DNA of 64,000 bases. Origin: Bryobacterales bacterium (GTDB lineage Bacteria; Acidobacteriota; Terriglobia; Bryobacterales; Bryobacteraceae). The translations under genes and the position numbers were made by a program. Positions within the stretch are counted from its first letter, which is position 1. Each line of letters starts with the position of its first letter. Shown here in pieces: positions 21,099 through 32,192 of the stretch. The DNA lies in the NCBI GenBank assembly GCA_003163855.1, contig PLRJ01000068.1, positions 22,878-86,877 of the forward strand. Direction: 5' to 3'. The notes below the pieces were generated by a model. That model was given only the letters and a program-made list of their open reading frames with translations, was not told the origin of the DNA and searched no databases.

Positions 21099-21168
21099 CA
21101 CAATCCCTGAAGCCAATAGCAGATAATAATTGTTCCTTCCGCGTTTGAAGACCTTGGTGATCTTTATT

Positions 21169-24100
21169 ATGCGAAAACTCGTCTGCTTTCTCCTCTTCTG
21201 TAACCTTTGCTGCGTGCTCGCCAACGAGCCCGAAAAGCCCGCAGCCCCCAAAACTCTTTCCCTAAAGCCCGAACGCGTCATCGACTTCGATACCGACGAA
21301 GGCACATGGCTCTCGCTCGATGTTTCTCCGGATGGAAAGACAATCGTCTTCGAAATGTTGGGAGATCTCTACACTGTTCCCATCACCGGCGGCGATGCCA
21401 AGCCTTTGTTAACCGGAATGGCGATGGAAACCCAGCCTCGTTTTTCTCCCAACGGCAAAGAGATCGCCTTCCTCAGCGACCGCGATGGCGGCGAAAATCT
21501 GTGGGTAATTGATGCCGACGGCACTCACCCGCGCAAGTTAAGCGACGAGCGCCGAACTGAATTTGTTTCCCCCGCCTGGACACCCGACGGTCAGTTTGTA
21601 GTCGTCTCCAAGTCAGGCTCAAACCTGGGAGCGAACGAGCTCTGGATGTATCACCGAGACGGCGCCGGCCCTGGTACGCAGATGACAAAGTCGAAGACCA
21701 AGCCCGATGCGCCGCGCGATGACTGGAATAACGACCTGGGCGCATGCTTCTCGCCTGACGGCAAATTCGTTTACTTTGCTCGCCGAAAGCGCAACTTCAG
21801 CTACAACGTTACTTTCCCGCTTTGGCAACTCGTCCGGCGCAACCTGGTGAGTGGCGACGAAGACACCATCACCAACCTGGCTGGCAGCGCCTTTCGCCCG
21901 CTTGTTTCTCCGAATGGCCAGTATCTGGTGTATGGCACCCGATATGAGCAGCAAACCGCGCTGCGAGTTCGAAATCTCACCACCGGGGACGACCGTTGGC
22001 TGGCATCGTCAGTCCAGCACGACGATCAGGAGTCGCGCGCCACACGCGACTTACTGCCAGGCTATGCCTTCACTCCGGATAGCAGTTCGCTGGTGCTAAA
22101 TTATGGCGGGCACCTCTGGAACTTGCCTGTAAGCGGCACGCAAAAGGACGCCAGACAAATCGCCTTCAAAGCGCACGTTCATTTAGACATTGGCCCTTTA
22201 CTGAAGTTTCCTGGCCGCGTGGACGACAGCAAAAGCGTTCGTTCCCGACTGATCATGGAGCCGGCCTGGTCGCCTGACGGCAAACAGGTCGTCTTCTCTT
22301 CTTTCGGTCACCTGTATAAAGCGGATCGCGATGGCGCCAACGTGGCGCGGCTGACCACTCTTGAAGAAGGCGAATACGAACCTTCGTGGTCGGCGGATGG
22401 CCAGAAGATTGTTTACGTTACCTGGTCATCGGCTGGCGGCGCTATCAAGACTGTGCCAATTGCGGGCGGTACGCCTGCAACCCTCAGCACCACTCCCGCC
22501 TTCTATCGCAATCCGGTTTTTTCACCCGACGGCAAGGACGTCTATGCGCTTCATCTGTCCACCAACCAAAGGTTCGAAATGGAATCGGAGTTTGGACGGC
22601 CACAGGGCGGACTCGACCTCATCAGCTTGCCCGCGGGCGGCGGCGATTGGCATATCATCCTGCCTTCCCGAGGCACTGGCAGGCCTCACTTCGGCCCGGA
22701 GAAGGATCGCATTTACCTCTATGGACCAGCCGGCCTGTTATCCGTACGCAGCGATGGCAGCGATCAACGCACTCTGCTAAAGGTTGTTGGTTCGAATGCG
22801 GACGGCGCTCCTGAGCCTCCTCCTGCAACCGATGTTCGCCTGAACCCCAAAGGCGACATGGCGCTGGTCATGCTCAATCGTGAATTGTGGCTGGTTCCCG
22901 TGCCACACATCGGAGGTACGGCTACCGTTGACCTGGGCAAACCTGGCATCGCGATTAAGCGCCTGACTTTGATTGGCGCCGATTCTCTTGATTGGGGAAG
23001 TAATGGCCGGGAAATTCATTGGTCCGTAGGCGCAACAGCATTTAGTACCGCAACCGACTCTGTGGCATTGAAGGTTGGAGAAGCCGCTAAGAACGCCAGT
23101 GACATCCAGCCTCAAAAAACCGATTTCATCATTGAAGTTCCCAGGGCCAAACCCTCCGGCACCATCGTTCTCAGGGGAGGCACCGCCATCACCATGCACG
23201 GTGATGAAGTGATTCCCAACGCCGATATCGTCATAACTGACAATCGAATCACTGCTATCGGCAAGCACGGCCAGGTGACTCTACCTTCCGGCGCGGCCGT
23301 TAAAGATATTCGCGGAACAACAGTGATGCCCGGCTTAACCGACATCCATGCGCACTGGATGGAAGTCCGGCACAATGTTTTGGATATGAATGCGTGGCCC
23401 ATGCTGGTGAATCTCGCCTACGGAGTCACCTCCGGCCGAGATCCCCAGACTTCCACCAACGACATGTTCGCTTATCAGGACCTTATAGACGCCGGAGTGA
23501 TTCCTGGACCTCGCGCCTACAGCACTGGGCCGGGCATCTTCTCGTACACCGACTTTAAGACTGCGGAAGAAGCGAAACATTATGTCGATTGGTATGCCAC
23601 TTATTACCGAACCAATACCATCAAGTCCTACACGGTCGGAAATCGGCAGCAGCGTCAGTGGGTGATTGAAGCCTCAAAGGCCCTCCACTTGATGCCCACT
23701 ACCGAAGGGGCGCTCGATCTGAAACTCGACATGACGCACGTTATTGATGGCTTCAGCGGCAGCGAGCACGCGCTCCCGATTGTGCCGCTCTATCGCGATG
23801 TGGTGGAACTTTTTGCGCGCAGTGGGGTCACTTATACGCCCACTCTCCTTGTCGCCTATGGTGGCCCATGGGCTGAAAACACCTTCTTCGAAGAGAAAGA
23901 CTGGTATAACGATCCAAAACTGCGGCGTTTCTTCCCTCCGAATGAATTGTGGTTACGAACGTCTCGCCGGCCCTGGTTCCAGGAGCGCGAACAGATCTAT
24001 CCGAAATTGGCTGCGGGGGCGGGAAAAATTCTGGCTGCGGGTGGCAACGTCGGTCTTGGTGGACATGGGCAGTTTCAGGGATTGCAGTGTCACTGGGAAA

Positions 24101-24423
24101 TGTGGGCGCTGGCGTCAGGCGGCATCGCTCCTCACGATGTTCTTAGAATCGCAACCATCAATGGAGCGCGCGCACTAGGTCTCGATCAGGATCTTGGCAG
24201 CCTCGAAGTTGGCAAACTCGCCGACTTACTCGTTCTCGATAAGAATCCTCTCGATGACATTCGCAATACCAATACCATCCGCTACGTGATGAAAAATGGC
24301 GAACTATATGACGGCAATACGCTCAATAAGGTCTTGCCGACGCCCTCCAACTTGCCCGCACTTTGGTGGTGGAACGACCGTCCGGATGGCGCGCCGCTGC
24401 CCGCAACAAAGGGGACCAACTAG
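21169..24423 (+). CDS. Secreted Tricorn-like beta-propeller fused to an amidohydrolase
   Basis: About 1084 residues from the ATG at 21169, chosen because it directly begins a signal peptide (MRKLVCFLLFCNLCCVLA). Residues about 30-640 carry many WD40-like (PD40/TolB-type) repeats such as PRFSPNGKEIAFLSDRDG, PAWSPDGKQVVFSSFG and PSWSADGQKIVYVTW. From about residue 665 a metal-dependent amidohydrolase follows: GGTAITMHGDEVIPNADIVI, VMPGLTDIHAHW (metal HxH), the later GLGGHGQFQG and the C-terminal LGSLEVGKLADLLVLDKNPL. Such proteins are thought to cleave peptides or acyl amides in the periplasm. It heads a plus-strand cluster; the amidase gene follows after 6 nt. Confidence 0.92.
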   Translation: MRKLVCFLLFCNLCCVLANEPEKPAAPKTLSLKPERVIDFDTDEGTWLSLDVSPDGKTIVFEMLGDLYTVPITGGDAKPLLTGMAMETQPRFSPNGKEIAFLSDRDGGENLWVIDADGTHPRKLSDERRTEFVSPAWTPDGQFVVVSKSGSNLGANELWMYHRDGAGPGTQMTKSKTKPDAPRDDWNNDLGACFSPDGKFVYFARRKRNFSYNVTFPLWQLVRRNLVSGDEDTITNLAGSAFRPLVSPNGQYLVYGTRYEQQTALRVRNLTTGDDRWLASSVQHDDQESRATRDLLPGYAFTPDSSSLVLNYGGHLWNLPVSGTQKDARQIAFKAHVHLDIGPLLKFPGRVDDSKSVRSRLIMEPAWSPDGKQVVFSSFGHLYKADRDGANVARLTTLEEGEYEPSWSADGQKIVYVTWSSAGGAIKTVPIAGGTPATLSTTPAFYRNPVFSPDGKDVYALHLSTNQRFEMESEFGRPQGGLDLISLPAGGGDWHIILPSRGTGRPHFGPEKDRIYLYGPAGLLSVRSDGSDQRTLLKVVGSNADGAPEPPPATDVRLNPKGDMALVMLNRELWLVPVPHIGGTATVDLGKPGIAIKRLTLIGADSLDWGSNGREIHWSVGATAFSTATDSVALKVGEAAKNASDIQPQKTDFIIEVPRAKPSGTIVLRGGTAITMHGDEVIPNADIVITDNRITAIGKHGQVTLPSGAAVKDIRGTTVMPGLTDIHAHWMEVRHNVLDMNAWPMLVNLAYGVTSGRDPQTSTNDMFAYQDLIDAGVIPGPRAYSTGPGIFSYTDFKTAEEAKHYVDWYATYYRTNTIKSYTVGNRQQRQWVIEASKALHLMPTTEGALDLKLDMTHVIDGFSGSEHALPIVPLYRDVVELFARSGVTYTPTLLVAYGGPWAENTFFEEKDWYNDPKLRRFFPPNELWLRTSRRPWFQEREQIYPKLAAGAGKILAAGGNVGLGGHGQFQGLQCHWEMWALASGGIAPHDVLRIATINGARALGLDQDLGSLEVGKLADLLVLDKNPLDDIRNTNTIRYVMKNGELYDGNTLNKVLPTPSNLPALWWWNDRPDGAPLPATKGTN

Positions 24424-24429
24424 CCGCTT

Positions 24430-26046
24430 ATGTCACAGTTTTCCCGTCGCCAATGGATTTCAGGCGTTTTCGGTGGAGCAATCGCCGCGCAAATCGCCAC
24501 CGCCGATACTCCGAACGCAGATGATCTGGCCGGTCTTTCGCTAAAACAAGCCTCCGATCAAATACACTCGAAGAAACTCTCTCCGGTAGAACTGACTGAG
24601 GCCTGTCTCGCCCGCATCAAAACTTACAATCCTAAAGTAAATGCGTGGATTACCGTCATGCGCGAACAGGCGCTGGCGCAGGCGAAGGAACTTGAAAAAG
24701 AGCAGGCTGCGGGGCATTTTCGCAGCCCTCTGCATGGCATTCCTATCGGTTTAAAAGACACCATAGATACCCAGGGTGTTCGCACCACAGCCGCCAGCGC
24801 CATTTACGAATATCGCTTCGCACCTGAAGACGCCGAGGTGGTGCGCAAGCTGAAAGCTGCCGGAGCCATCCTGCTGGGCAAGTGCAACATGCACGAATTC
24901 GATGCCGGACCGACCTCCGCCGTCAGCTACTGGGGACCGGTTCGGAATCCCTGGAACCTCGAGCGCGTTCCCGGAGGCCCTTCCGGTGGATCCGCAGCGG
25001 CCTTGGCTATGAACAACTGTTTTGCTGCCTTGGGAACCGACGCCAGCGGCGGTATTCGCGTGCCTGCGGCTTATTGCGGAGTGGTTGGGTTCACGCCAAC
25101 CTACGGACGAGTCAGCATTCGTGGCATCGTGCCTTTCGCATGGTCGCTCGATCACTGTGGCCCCATGACTCGCACGGTAGAGGATGCCGCCCTGGTGCTG
25201 CAGCAGATTGCCGGCTACGATCAGAACGACATCGACAGCGTCGACCGTCCTGTGCCCGATTATTCTGCCGCTATCGGGGCTCCTGTCAAACCATTCCGCC
25301 TGGGCATGGCGGCGCAGTTCTTCGATCATCTGGACGAAGAAGTGGCCCGCGCAATGGACGAAGCCATCACTCTCCTGAGCAAAATGACTAGTGGAATACA
25401 TGAAGTCAGGCTGCCCTCGCTCCTGCGCGCCGGTGTTAATGCCGAAATTGCCGCGTATCACGAAGATGTGAAAGGAGTAAACGGCGGCGGTTACGAACCT
25501 GCGACAGCGCGCGTGTTTCCGGCGACAGCCGACTCCGCCAAGGCAGTGGATTACATCCGCGGCTGGCGCGAATTACAGCTGGTCCGGCGCACCGTGGACG
25601 AAGATGTTTTTCAAAAGCAGGGTATCGACCTGCTGATCGCTCCCACGGTGAGGCGAATGCCTCCGACAATCGAGGAGTCACTGGTTGCGCCTGCCACTGG
25701 CGGCGGCCGTGGCGGAGCGGGCGCCAGTACTGGCGGCGGAACGGCAACTCCGGCTACACCAGGTGGCGGTAATGCAACATCGCGCACCCAACCCGATCTC
25801 GATGAAAACACCCGCCCCTTTAACGGCTATGGATTGCCAGTCATCAGCCTGCCGTGCGGCTTTTCTAAAGACGGCATGCCCATAGGCCTTCAAATCTGCG
25901 GACCAAGGTTCAGCGAGGTCAGTGTCCTTGCGCTGGCTTACGCTTATCAGCAAGCCACCGAGTGGAACAAACGCAAACCAACCCTTCAACCCGACACGAA
26001 AGTGCCCACGCTCTCGAAAGCCGCGTCGGAACAGACCGGAGGATAA
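24430..26046 (+). CDS. Amidase-signature protein lacking both catalytic serines
   Basis: 538 residues. An RRQWISGVFGGAIAA segment suggests Tat export. The amidase-signature fold is clear and the catalytic lysine is present (GLKD, K109). By alignment with the next gene and the family, the cis-serine position 184 is proline (GGPSGGS instead of GGSSGGS) and the nucleophile position 208 is glycine (GTDASGGIR instead of GTDTGGSIR). The 24-residue spacing between these positions matches the family, so the alignment is firm. It has a Gly/Thr-rich insert at about 420-455. It is probably a non-hydrolytic paralogue, or an enzyme using other chemistry. It sits between the amidohydrolase and the intact amidase, with 6-nt and 5-nt gaps. 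Confidence 0.9.
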   Translation: MSQFSRRQWISGVFGGAIAAQIATADTPNADDLAGLSLKQASDQIHSKKLSPVELTEACLARIKTYNPKVNAWITVMREQALAQAKELEKEQAAGHFRSPLHGIPIGLKDTIDTQGVRTTAASAIYEYRFAPEDAEVVRKLKAAGAILLGKCNMHEFDAGPTSAVSYWGPVRNPWNLERVPGGPSGGSAAALAMNNCFAALGTDASGGIRVPAAYCGVVGFTPTYGRVSIRGIVPFAWSLDHCGPMTRTVEDAALVLQQIAGYDQNDIDSVDRPVPDYSAAIGAPVKPFRLGMAAQFFDHLDEEVARAMDEAITLLSKMTSGIHEVRLPSLLRAGVNAEIAAYHEDVKGVNGGGYEPATARVFPATADSAKAVDYIRGWRELQLVRRTVDEDVFQKQGIDLLIAPTVRRMPPTIEESLVAPATGGGRGGAGASTGGGTATPATPGGGNATSRTQPDLDENTRPFNGYGLPVISLPCGFSKDGMPIGLQICGPRFSEVSVLALAYAYQQATEWNKRKPTLQPDTKVPTLSKAASEQTGG

Positions 26047-26051
26047 ACGCC

Positions 26052-27512
26052 ATGACCGATCTGTCCGCACTCACTCTGAAGCAGGCTTCCGCCATGATTC
26101 GCGCGAAAAAAGTTTCGCCCGTCGAGTTGACTGAGGCTTGCCTTGCCAGCATCAAGACCTTCAATCCGAAAACCAACGCCTGGATCACGGTCATGCGTGA
26201 GCAAGCATTGGCGCAGGCACATGCGCTTGAAAAGGAGCAAGCGGCCGGACACTTCCGTAGCCCCTTGCACGGAATTCCCATTGGCTTGAAAGACAATATC
26301 GATGCCGCTGGAGTTCGCACCACCGCAGGCAGCAAGACGCTTGAGGGCAACGTCCCTTTGAACGATGCCGAGGTCACTCGCCGCCTCCGAGCCGCCGGCG
26401 CAGTCCTTATCGGCAAGTGCAACATGCACATCTTCGCTCAGGGAGCCACTTCTGCCGTCAGTTATTTTGGCCCTGTGCGCAACCCCTGGGACTTGGCCGC
26501 CATCGCCGGCGGATCATCCGGTGGGTCTGCCGCTGCCGTAGCCATGGACAACTGCTATGCAGCGCTCGGGACCGATACCGGCGGCTCCATTCGAACCCCA
26601 TCCGCCATGTGCGGCGTGGTAGGTTTCAAGGCCACTTACGGACGAGTCAGCATTCGAGGAATCATTCCGCTCACCTGGTCTCTCGATCACTGCGGGCCCA
26701 TCGCCAGAACCGTCGAAGATGCGGCACTCGTACTGCAGCAGATAGCCGGATACGATCACCTCGATCTGCAGAGCATCGATTATCCTGTTCCGGATTATTC
26801 CACCGCCATTGGAGGCCCCGTCTCGCAATTCCGGATTGGTATCCCGCCCATGTTCTACGACGGGCTCGACACGGAGATTGGGCAGGCGATGGAGGCAGCG
26901 ATCAGTGTACTCGCCCGCCTGACCAAGGGATCCTGCGAGATTCAGATGCCAAACGTTCTAGGTACCGGCGCAGGCAGCGAAGGCGCCGTTTTCCGCGAAG
27001 AACTGGGAAATAGTTTCGTCAGTCCTGAAGGCGCCCCGACTGGCCTTGGTGGGGGCAACGGTGGCGGCGGTCAGCGCGCCGTGGATTACATCAAGGAGTG
27101 GCGCCAATTACGCTTGATGCGCCGCACTGTGGACGCGGACGTCTTCCAGAAGCAAAACATCGATCTGCTGGTAACGCCGACCATTCGCCACTTGCCGTGG
27201 ACGATAGAAGAAGAACTTGGCCGCCTGGCCAACGAGAGACCCCGGCATCCGGAGCCCGGTAACACGCGCTCGCTGGACGACTACGGTCTTCCAACCATCA
27301 CTGTGCCCTGTGGATTTTCCAAGAACGGCTTGCCTATCGGGATGCAGATCAGCGGACCCAACCTGGCGGAACGTAACGTTCTCGCACTGGCCCATGCCTT
27401 TGAGCAGGCAACGGACTGGCATCTGCGCCGGCCCACTCTAACCGCGGATAGTAAGGTGCCTGTTTTATCCAAGGCCGCAGCCGCTCAAACTGGAGAGTCT
27501 TTGACGCGCTGA
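26052..27512 (+). CDS. Amidase-signature enzyme with intact Ser-cisSer-Lys triad
   Basis: 486 residues from the ATG at 26052, preceded by GGAGG 10 nt upstream. The open frame reaches back to 25962, but that part overlaps the preceding gene. The catalytic triad is intact: K80 (GLKDN), S155 (GGSSGGS) and S179 (GTDTGGSIR). It hydrolyses a carboxamide; the substrate is unknown. It lacks the export signal of the preceding paralogue, and the two share long identical stretches (NAWITVMREQALAQA, HFRSPLHGIPIGLKD), so they arose by tandem duplication. Sits 5 nt after that gene. Confidence 0.95.
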   Translation: MTDLSALTLKQASAMIRAKKVSPVELTEACLASIKTFNPKTNAWITVMREQALAQAHALEKEQAAGHFRSPLHGIPIGLKDNIDAAGVRTTAGSKTLEGNVPLNDAEVTRRLRAAGAVLIGKCNMHIFAQGATSAVSYFGPVRNPWDLAAIAGGSSGGSAAAVAMDNCYAALGTDTGGSIRTPSAMCGVVGFKATYGRVSIRGIIPLTWSLDHCGPIARTVEDAALVLQQIAGYDHLDLQSIDYPVPDYSTAIGGPVSQFRIGIPPMFYDGLDTEIGQAMEAAISVLARLTKGSCEIQMPNVLGTGAGSEGAVFREELGNSFVSPEGAPTGLGGGNGGGGQRAVDYIKEWRQLRLMRRTVDADVFQKQNIDLLVTPTIRHLPWTIEEELGRLANERPRHPEPGNTRSLDDYGLPTITVPCGFSKNGLPIGMQISGPNLAERNVLALAHAFEQATDWHLRRPTLTADSKVPVLSKAAAAQTGESLTR

Positions 27513-29267: not shown

Positions 29268-32192
29268 ATGGCGAGAAACCTGGTCGTTTGCTGTGACGGA
29301 ACTGGCAATGAGTACGGGACTGAAAACTCCAATGTAGTAAAGCTGTACTGGGCGTTATCGGCTCATGAGCAGCAAACTGGTTACTATCACCCGGGCGTCG
29401 GGACCGCCGGAGCCCGAAACGCGTTAACCGCCGCCGGCAAGTGGTGGACCAAAGTCCGTGGCCTGGCCTTCGGTTACGGCTTCTCCGACAACATCGCCGA
29501 CGTGTATGCGTTTCTCATGCGCGAGTACTCACCCGGCGACAAGATTTATATCTTCGGTTTCAGCCGCGGTTCTTACACGGCGCGTGCTCTCTGTGGTCTG
29601 CTGCACATGTGCGGGCTGCTGACGCGCGGTAATGAGGCGTTAATCCCCTATGCTCTTCGGCTGTACAAAGGCAGCGACCCGCAAAAGTTTAAGATCGCGA
29701 AAGGCTTTCGAGAGACCTTTAGCATTGAGTGCAAACCCTACTTTCTGGGATTGTGGGACACGGTCAGTTCCATCGGATGGATTCTGGATCCCATCTTTAA
29801 CGGGCAGGGCCGTCTGCCCTTTACCGCACAATTGCCGGACGTCAGTATCATCCGCCATGCCGTCTCGATAGATGAGCGGCGCGCCTTCTTCCGCCCAAAC
29901 CTTGTCAGTCAATCCGCTACCAACCCGCAAGATTTGAAGCAGGTCTGGTTCGCCGGCGTTCACTCAGATGTCGGAGGCAGTTATCCCGACGCCGAAAGCG
30001 GTTTGTCTCAGACTTCCTTGCGTTGGATGCTCTGCGAGGCAGCCTCAGCCGGAGTGGCTCTTGATCCTGAGAAATATGACGGGGTGTTAGGCGGCAAGTT
30101 TCCCTACATTCCGCCTAACCACTTGGGTAAGCTGCATAAGTCACTCAAGGGATTTTGGCTTTTGGCAGAAGTCTGGCCAAAGCTTCATTACCGCAGAGTG
30201 GAAGTTCCAGGCCAGACCGACCCTGAATGGAAGCGCGGCATTCGGATCAACCTAGGTCGTAAGCGCACGCTCCCGGCGGCCGCTCACGTCCATCAAAGTG
30301 TTCTCGACCGCATGCGCGACGACCCCGGCTACAAACCCAAGCTGCCCGCCGGCTACATTACAGAGCCCCCAAGCGATGGTGAGCTGGTTCCCCGCCCTGT
30401 CGCACCGCAGCCGCCGCCGGTGGTAACTAAACCGCCGCTGCTAAAGCGTCCCAGTGTCATCACGGTCCTGGCAGCGCTGGCTTTGCTGGGTATTTGCACC
30501 GCAGTCATTGCCATCTTCACTATCCATAACAGTCTGGAAGTGCCGGACATTAAGCGCCCCGCCAACGTCGTATTTCTAACCCAGAATTGGACCGAAGAAC
30601 AACGTCAGACTTACTATCACACCGCCCAAGGCAGCGAGCTGTTGCCTTACTCGTGGTTTCTCGCGCTTGAGCAACCGCGCTTAAGCATTACAGGCGCCCC
30701 GCTGTTCAAAGAAGACTCCTACATGCAGGGCTTTGGCTTCATTCCTGACAAACCATACGCCCAGAACCCGGATGCTTTGCCCGTAGGCTTCGCGCGTGAC
30801 GATCGATTTGTAGATCCATACACCGGACAACGAAACGCCGTTCTCGGCATCACCTGCGCGGCTTGCCATACGGGCGAGCTGTTCTATCAGGACAAGGCCA
30901 TTCGCATTGATGCCGGCCCCTCCATGATCGAATTGCAAAAATTCACTGAGGCGTTAGGTCTCGCCGTAACCTGGACTTACTACGATCCCCTGCGCTTCCG
31001 CCGGTTCGCTCATGCCATCCTCGGACCCGACCCTTCCACTGCCGACGAAGCTATCCTGCGCAAGGCGCTGAAATACTATCTCGACACCAGCTTCACCGAG
31101 TTCAAATCGACGCTCCATCTGTTTCCCACTCCCGAAGGTTACGGCCGCACCGATGCACTGGCTCGCATCGGCAATTTTGTTTTTGGCACTGAGTTGAACA
31201 ATCGAAAGAATCTAAAGGTCGCCGATGGTCCCGTAAACTATCCACCTGTCTGGGACACGTCATGGTTCGACTGGGTGCAATACAACGGATCGATTCAACA
31301 GCCCATGGGAAGGAACGTAGGCGAAGCACTAGGTGTGCGTGCCCGGCTTAACATGATCGGTTACCCCGGCACTCAATTCCAGAACACCATTCGCGTCGAA
31401 AATATCAATTCACTTGAGAAACTGCTGGGAGGTGAAGCTCCCGGCAAAGGCGTCTGGTCGCCCAAGTGGCCAGCCGAAATATTAGGCAAGATCGACGAAC
31501 AAAAAGCGCTTCAGGGCAAAGCGCTCTACAACAGTATGTGTATCGGTTGCCACAAGCCACCCATGCTTTCCGAGGAAGGTCAGAAACCCGAGTTTTGGAC
31601 CACCAAAACAGACAGCGCCGCCCCACAGTTCTTCAAAGTAACCTTGATTGACTTACCTGTCATTGGTACTGACCCCAAAGAAGCCCGGAATTTTGCAGAG
31701 CGCCAAGCCGACAGTGGTCCGGTTGGACAAGGAACCATCTCAGCCGCCGACGGGCTCAAGTACATCACACAGAAGATCATTGATCAGGCCTACTCCGATC
31801 TCAATCTTTCTCCGGAACAACGCCAGGCATGGGACGGTTACCGGGGGAATTCCGTCTTGGCGCCGCTCAAGTATAAGGCGCGCCCACATAACGGCATTTG
31901 GGCCACCCCGCCCTATCTGCACAACGGCTCCGTTCCAAACCTTTACGCACTGCTTTCGCCCGTTTCGGAGCGGCCCAAAGTCTTCTATCTCGGAAATAAG
32001 GAGTACGATCCTGTAAGACTCGGTCTCAACACCGAATCGCTGAAAGGCGCCTCCGAGTTTCGCACCAGCCTTCCCGGCAACTCCAACGCCGGGCACGAGT
32101 TCAATGACGGTCCCAAAGGCAACGGCATCATCGGGCGCAAGCTTTCCGAAGAAGAAAGAATGCAGATCATCGAGTACCTAAAAACGCTTTAG
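29268..32192 (+). CDS. DUF2235 hydrolase fused to a membrane-anchored di-heme cytochrome c
   Basis: 974 residues. Residues about 1-345 are DUF2235, an alpha/beta hydrolase-like domain (LVVCCDGTGNEYG, nucleophile-elbow GFSRGSYTARALCG, FAGVHSDVGGSY) known from the T6SS phospholipase effector Tle1 and related proteins. A Pro-rich linker leads to one membrane helix (about 401-424). Residues about 435-974 form a di-heme cytochrome c with CAACH (530-534) and CIGCH (758-762), a QNWTEEQRQTYYHTAQG entry motif and GIWATPPYLHNGS. These resemble the di-heme peroxidase-like/RoxA-type dioxygenase group. The hydrolase part has no signal peptide, so it would be cytosolic and the heme part periplasmic. No frameshift is visible; a GGAGG ribosome site precedes the ATG. 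Confidence 0.9.
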   Translation: MARNLVVCCDGTGNEYGTENSNVVKLYWALSAHEQQTGYYHPGVGTAGARNALTAAGKWWTKVRGLAFGYGFSDNIADVYAFLMREYSPGDKIYIFGFSRGSYTARALCGLLHMCGLLTRGNEALIPYALRLYKGSDPQKFKIAKGFRETFSIECKPYFLGLWDTVSSIGWILDPIFNGQGRLPFTAQLPDVSIIRHAVSIDERRAFFRPNLVSQSATNPQDLKQVWFAGVHSDVGGSYPDAESGLSQTSLRWMLCEAASAGVALDPEKYDGVLGGKFPYIPPNHLGKLHKSLKGFWLLAEVWPKLHYRRVEVPGQTDPEWKRGIRINLGRKRTLPAAAHVHQSVLDRMRDDPGYKPKLPAGYITEPPSDGELVPRPVAPQPPPVVTKPPLLKRPSVITVLAALALLGICTAVIAIFTIHNSLEVPDIKRPANVVFLTQNWTEEQRQTYYHTAQGSELLPYSWFLALEQPRLSITGAPLFKEDSYMQGFGFIPDKPYAQNPDALPVGFARDDRFVDPYTGQRNAVLGITCAACHTGELFYQDKAIRIDAGPSMIELQKFTEALGLAVTWTYYDPLRFRRFAHAILGPDPSTADEAILRKALKYYLDTSFTEFKSTLHLFPTPEGYGRTDALARIGNFVFGTELNNRKNLKVADGPVNYPPVWDTSWFDWVQYNGSIQQPMGRNVGEALGVRARLNMIGYPGTQFQNTIRVENINSLEKLLGGEAPGKGVWSPKWPAEILGKIDEQKALQGKALYNSMCIGCHKPPMLSEEGQKPEFWTTKTDSAAPQFFKVTLIDLPVIGTDPKEARNFAERQADSGPVGQGTISAADGLKYITQKIIDQAYSDLNLSPEQRQAWDGYRGNSVLAPLKYKARPHNGIWATPPYLHNGSVPNLYALLSPVSERPKVFYLGNKEYDPVRLGLNTESLKGASEFRTSLPGNSNAGHEFNDGPKGNGIIGRKLSEEERMQIIEYLKTL

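Follow-up and report, generated by a model that had tools for sequence, protein, structure and literature searches.

We refer to the whole 64,000-nucleotide stretch analyzed here as the window; it comes from the MAG of an acidobacterial soil bacterium, 6.3 Mb in 253 contigs (89% complete, 5.7% contamination). Two neighbouring genes on its forward strand belong to the amidase signature (AS) family. The first, which we call A (24430..26046), encodes a protein of 538 residues that matches the PF01425 Amidase profile over its full length (E 7.7e-110, profile positions 1-445 of 445). The second, B (26052..27512), encodes an AS protein of 486 residues without a signal peptide, and its ATG lies 5 nt after the stop codon of A. 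The earlier note had described A as a paralogue that lost both catalytic serines beside an intact copy, and our rereading of the open reading frame and its translation bore this out. In A, Lys109 (24754..24756) is kept, Pro184 (CCT; 24979..24981) replaces the cis-serine and Gly208 (GGT; 25051..25053) replaces the nucleophilic serine, with the 24-residue spacing between the two positions as described. B, when read from the ATG at 26052, is intact, with the complete triad of Lys80 (26289..26291), the cis-serine Ser155 (TCA; 26514..26516) and the nucleophile Ser179 (TCC; 26586..26588). A also carries a Gly-rich low-complexity insert at residues ~429-452 (25714..25785), the length of which varies among orthologues in the alignment; in the AlphaFold2 model, pLDDT is below 50 for residues 422-458. 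Upstream of A, separated by 6 nt, is a gene for a fusion of a PD40 (TolB-like) propeller and an amidohydrolase (21130-24423). The neighbours of A and B in the window (this fusion, an alpha-amylase and others) were not found beside A-B at other loci, and the idea of conserved operon partners besides A and B was rejected on that ground.

Combining a family-wide search of 237 genomes with a scan of a genome collection, we identified A orthologues (60-74% identical) in 12 genomes from 8 genera, all within one acidobacterial family. The named relatives in the genome-collection scan were Bryobacterales, Solibacteraceae and Candidatus Sulfopaludibacter MAGs. The substitutions seen in the window are conserved among the orthologues: position 184 is Pro in seven and Ala in five, and position 208 is Gly in ten and Ala in two. 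Orthologues with the normal serines, which the earlier note had taken as the sign of a one-off event, were looked for, and none of the 12 has Ser at either position, though most of the codons seen are one nucleotide away from a serine codon. Lys109, on the other hand, is invariant in all 12, as it is across B and the outgroup, and Ser occupies both catalytic positions in the outgroup and in all B proteins available at full length (10/10). Serine-less relatives were also looked for outside the family, where the best matches at class and phylum level are intact (L080-L082, L084), and the search for plasmid copies returned only distant amidases with less than 40% identity. The most economical reading is that the serines would have been lost once, before the radiation of the A clade.

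The window copy of A has a serine, Ser206, two residues N-terminal to the lost nucleophile (TDASGGIR). We rejected it as an alternative, shifted nucleophile, since the orthologues have Gly, Ala, Ser or Asn there. In the A gene of G030 (L045:5899-7554), the GTD motif also has Gly in place of its conserved Asp (GTGAGGGIR).

Pseudogene decay, a single isolated mutation or a fault of assembly could each produce the loss of both serines in the window, and the contig does come from a MAG with the completeness and contamination given above. However, the same loss in 12 independently assembled genomes refutes this explanation, and the reading frames are intact, with omega ~0.15 for A (~0.13 for B; pairwise, NG86), so that we give it next to no credit. 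Over the same genome pairs, dN of A is ~1.2 times that of B, with a correlation of 0.81. By these estimates A is a functional gene under purifying selection. The suggestion of the earlier note that A may have a binding or regulatory role, rather than being a pseudogene, is supported as far as a selected, non-hydrolytic role is concerned: such a role agrees with the conserved loss in 12 species of 8 genera, with purifying selection, and with the export signal in 12/12 orthologues and the near-perfect co-occurrence with B that are described below.

For comparison with A, we took the 130 positions at which B shows no variation and at least 85% of the outgroup amidases agree. All 12 A proteins keep 101 of them. 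Only four of the positions are retained by no A, and all four belong to the catalytic centre: N111, which lies two residues from Lys109, together with A158, S184 and S208. A is therefore altered at this centre and hardly elsewhere among conserved positions. Position 158 (24901..24903) is Asp in 12/12 A, where every B and outgroup protein has Ala. The segment N153-S208 aligns without gaps with FAAH (the FAAH segment was checked against PDB chains), and Asp158 falls on Met191, which contacts the leaving-group amine and lies at the scissile amide (PMC7730713). One reading of this is that A is a rebuilt enzyme, in which Asp158 and Lys109 give the AS fold a new centre for catalysis or ligand activation, beside the intact twin; if true, this would be chemistry undescribed for the AS family. 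The exclusive invariance of Asp158 and its alignment with Met191 speak in favour, but positions 184 (Pro/Ala) and 208 (Gly/Ala) drift, as they should in a site that no longer does chemistry, and a simpler account of Asp158 is a salt bridge burying the orphaned Lys109. We consider a rebuilt enzyme very improbable, and the Lys109-Asp158 salt bridge a plausible reason for the new residue.

AlphaFold2 predicted a confident AS fold for A (pLDDT 82.5, pTM 0.85; for B, 85.9 and 0.90). The best matches of the A model among solved structures are GatA and other AS enzymes, with TM 0.76-0.78 over the query, and Foldseek gave E 3.8e-40 against GatA 3h0l. A therefore shares with AS enzymes such as GatA, malonamidase E2, peptide amidase and FAAH (PF01425) the full-length domain, the GatA-like fold, the lysine and the Gly/Ser-rich region. 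In contrast to them, the whole A clade is without the cis-serine and the nucleophilic serine, and its Asp158 is new. With both serines lost, the hydrolysis mechanism of AS enzymes would be closed to A, and since two of the three defining catalytic residues are missing, A should not be filed as an amidase; annotation pipelines would misname it as such. Loss of catalytic residues across orthologues under purifying selection, together with an active-looking paralogue in 11/12 genomes, is what characterizes a conserved pseudoenzyme, and we conclude from the sequences that A is very probably a pseudoenzyme of this kind, devoid of AS hydrolysis.

In a maximum-likelihood tree, A and B form sister clades (100/99 each) within a joint clade supported at 100/100 (99/100 in an enlarged tree), and the solitary exported amidases of the same bacteria fall outside of it. 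The topology indicates that a single duplication gave rise to both A and B. The two genes are also inherited together: of the 12 genomes with A, 11 have B as well, and no B was found in the genomes without A (237 of the family searched). The genome in which A is present and no B was found, G067, is a MAG of 960 contigs, and in G225 the B gene is split across two contig ends. A and B are in tandem in 8 loci, where the start of B lies from 8 nt before to 17 nt after the stop of A; the overlaps at these junctions include GTGGCTGA and GTGGATAA. In the remaining three genomes (G030, G108 and G049), B is on a different contig from A. Within the genus of the window, the pair occurs in this genome only, a patchy distribution that could reflect horizontal transfer, repeated loss or misbinning of the window contig. 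Residues ~70-110 of A in the window are 93% identical to residues 41-80 of B, compared to a median of 75% to A of other genomes. This stretch is likely an old gene-conversion tract, ending at the catalytic lysine.

The export signals are distributed unevenly between the two genes. A begins with a Tat signal peptide, MSQFSRRQWISGVFGGAIAAQIATAD (24430..24507), in keeping with its earlier description as exported-like. The signal is present in 12/12 A, with R6 and R7 invariant, and a TatC gene was detected in the same genome as the window (E 8.5e-63); thus A has the twin-arginine motif, the hydrophobic stretch and the translocase gene expected for a Tat substrate. Among the 11 B proteins, a Tat signal was found in four: those of G030 and G108, which are unlinked to A, and those of G151 and G198, which are in tandem with it. 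The other seven lack a signal (G000, G041, G049, G053, G065, G124 and G225; the start of B in G225 was taken from the overlap of its frame with the A stop). In the outgroup, 21 of 22 amidases carry a Tat signal, the exception being the GatA-like L001. We also examined another family of the class, in which 7/7 copies from separately duplicated loci retain the signal. These loci include three complete tandem pairs (L086, L087 and L089, in genomes G349, G462 and G404, respectively), which arose by independent duplication and have the serines intact in both copies and a Tat signal on each. Since the signal is near-universal in relatives and is kept by both members of intact tandem pairs, its loss in B appears to go with the presence of a dead, signal-bearing twin.

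The genomes with unlinked genes add to this picture. A promoter-like element (TTGACA - 18 nt - TAAAAC/TACAAC) lies upstream of A in 10/12 genomes, for example before 5899 in L045 and before 4415, on the minus strand, in L053. With ~5 nt between the end of the element and the start codon, the mRNA would be leaderless. The A gene of the window is without this element, and is located 6 nt behind the PD40-amidohydrolase gene. The TTGACA element is also found before the unlinked B genes of G030, G108 and G049. In G030 and G108, the unlinked B has both an A-like promoter layout and an A-like Tat signal, and its first 40 mature residues are closer to A of the same genome than to other B proteins. That these two B genes carry the promoter and signal of the A type argues that B acts outside the cytoplasm; their sequences suggest that B needs export when it does not adjoin A.

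The layers observed are conserved serine loss, purifying selection, co-inheritance, translational coupling and complementary signal peptides. As the best explanation, we propose that an amidase exported by Tat duplicated into A and B in the common ancestor of the lineage. A would have changed its cis-serine to Pro/Ala and its nucleophile to Gly/Ala, and gained Asp158 in the active site, and B would have retained the triad and lost its own export signal in most species. Before export, the two proteins would fold into a joint complex in the cytoplasm, probably a heterodimer descended from a homodimer, and the folded pair would cross the membrane on the Tat signal of A, by hitchhiker export. The result would be a periplasmic amidase in which B alone catalyzes and A is a structural, substrate-binding or regulatory subunit. 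That A works together with B is probable; for Tat co-export of the putative A-B complex, we see the balance as about even, and the full explanation, joining the duplication, a dead A, a putative complex and hitchhiker export, is held with the same measured confidence. Against the explanation, the B proteins of two tandem loci (G151 and G198) carry a Tat signal of their own, B of G049 is signal-less though unlinked from A, G067 has A without a B found, and the A-B sequences include MAGs. For G049 to fit co-export, A and B would have to assemble even when encoded at separate loci.

If a signal-less B were to stay in the cytoplasm, there would be no co-export. In a rival explanation, A would be a stand-alone periplasmic binder or sensor that uses the old substrate pocket, and the signal-less B would hydrolyse the same compound in the cytoplasm once it has been taken up, the two being co-expressed with no contact. 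The Tat signal on A and its absence from B in the window are consistent with such a split between compartments, as is the fact that A keeps the pocket motifs apart from the serines. However, B of G030, G108, G151 and G198 has its own Tat signal, which, together with all close outgroup amidases being Tat substrates, makes the function of B look periplasmic; moreover, translational coupling, as found at 8 loci, is seen more typically in genes for a complex. We regard this alternative as rather unlikely. Finally, A may be a pseudoenzyme that regulates B by allostery or inhibition and has no role in export, which would then matter by chance only. This would account for the co-occurrence and coupling of the two genes, as well as for G151 and G198, where both copies carry Tat signals and a dead A has nonetheless been retained, but leaves unexplained why the signal was lost in 7/11 B and in none of the controls, and so it seems to us improbable. 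Within the co-export explanation that we favour, the same two loci point to a role of A beyond that of an escort.

Hitchhiker co-export by a signal that only one subunit carries is established for HybO-HybC and PaoABC of Escherichia coli (PMC4273604). A and B resemble these systems in that the Tat signal sits on one partner of the operon and the active site on the other, which in 7/11 B, that of the window included, has no signal. Unlike in them, escort and passenger would here be paralogues, of which the escort is catalytically dead; B has or lacks a signal depending on the species, and co-export is proposed from sequence. The effector Tse8 has an AS fold and is reported to act by binding GatCAB, not by amidase activity of the GatA type (PMC12283126). 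It is thus similar to A as an AS-fold protein acting by binding another AS complex, which for A is a proposal, but it is injected by a type VI system, belongs to another branch of the family and is not part of a tandem paralogue pair. Plant Toc64/OM64 also have an amidase-like domain, within a protein-import protein, and its active site is degenerate. In contrast to A, they are eukaryotic, have TPR and membrane domains and lack an active tandem partner. We found no description of a bacterial pseudo-amidase, or of a pseudo-amidase/amidase pair, in the open-licence literature, to which our search was confined and which makes for weak evidence of novelty.

The signal-peptide division of labour, the invariant Asp158, the single duplication behind both copies and the translational coupling go beyond the earlier note. 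The A-B pairs constitute a natural series, in which the split between catalysis and export signal is complete, partial or absent depending on the species, and they open to testing the transition from a homo-oligomeric exported enzyme to a hetero-complex of an active and a dead subunit.

Elsewhere in the window, we noted an odd domain-fusion ORF of 974 residues (29268-32192), with a Tle1-like/DUF2235 domain of phospholipase type (PF09994; residues 3-255), a likely membrane helix, and a RoxA-like cytochrome c region (PF21419; residues 869-906).
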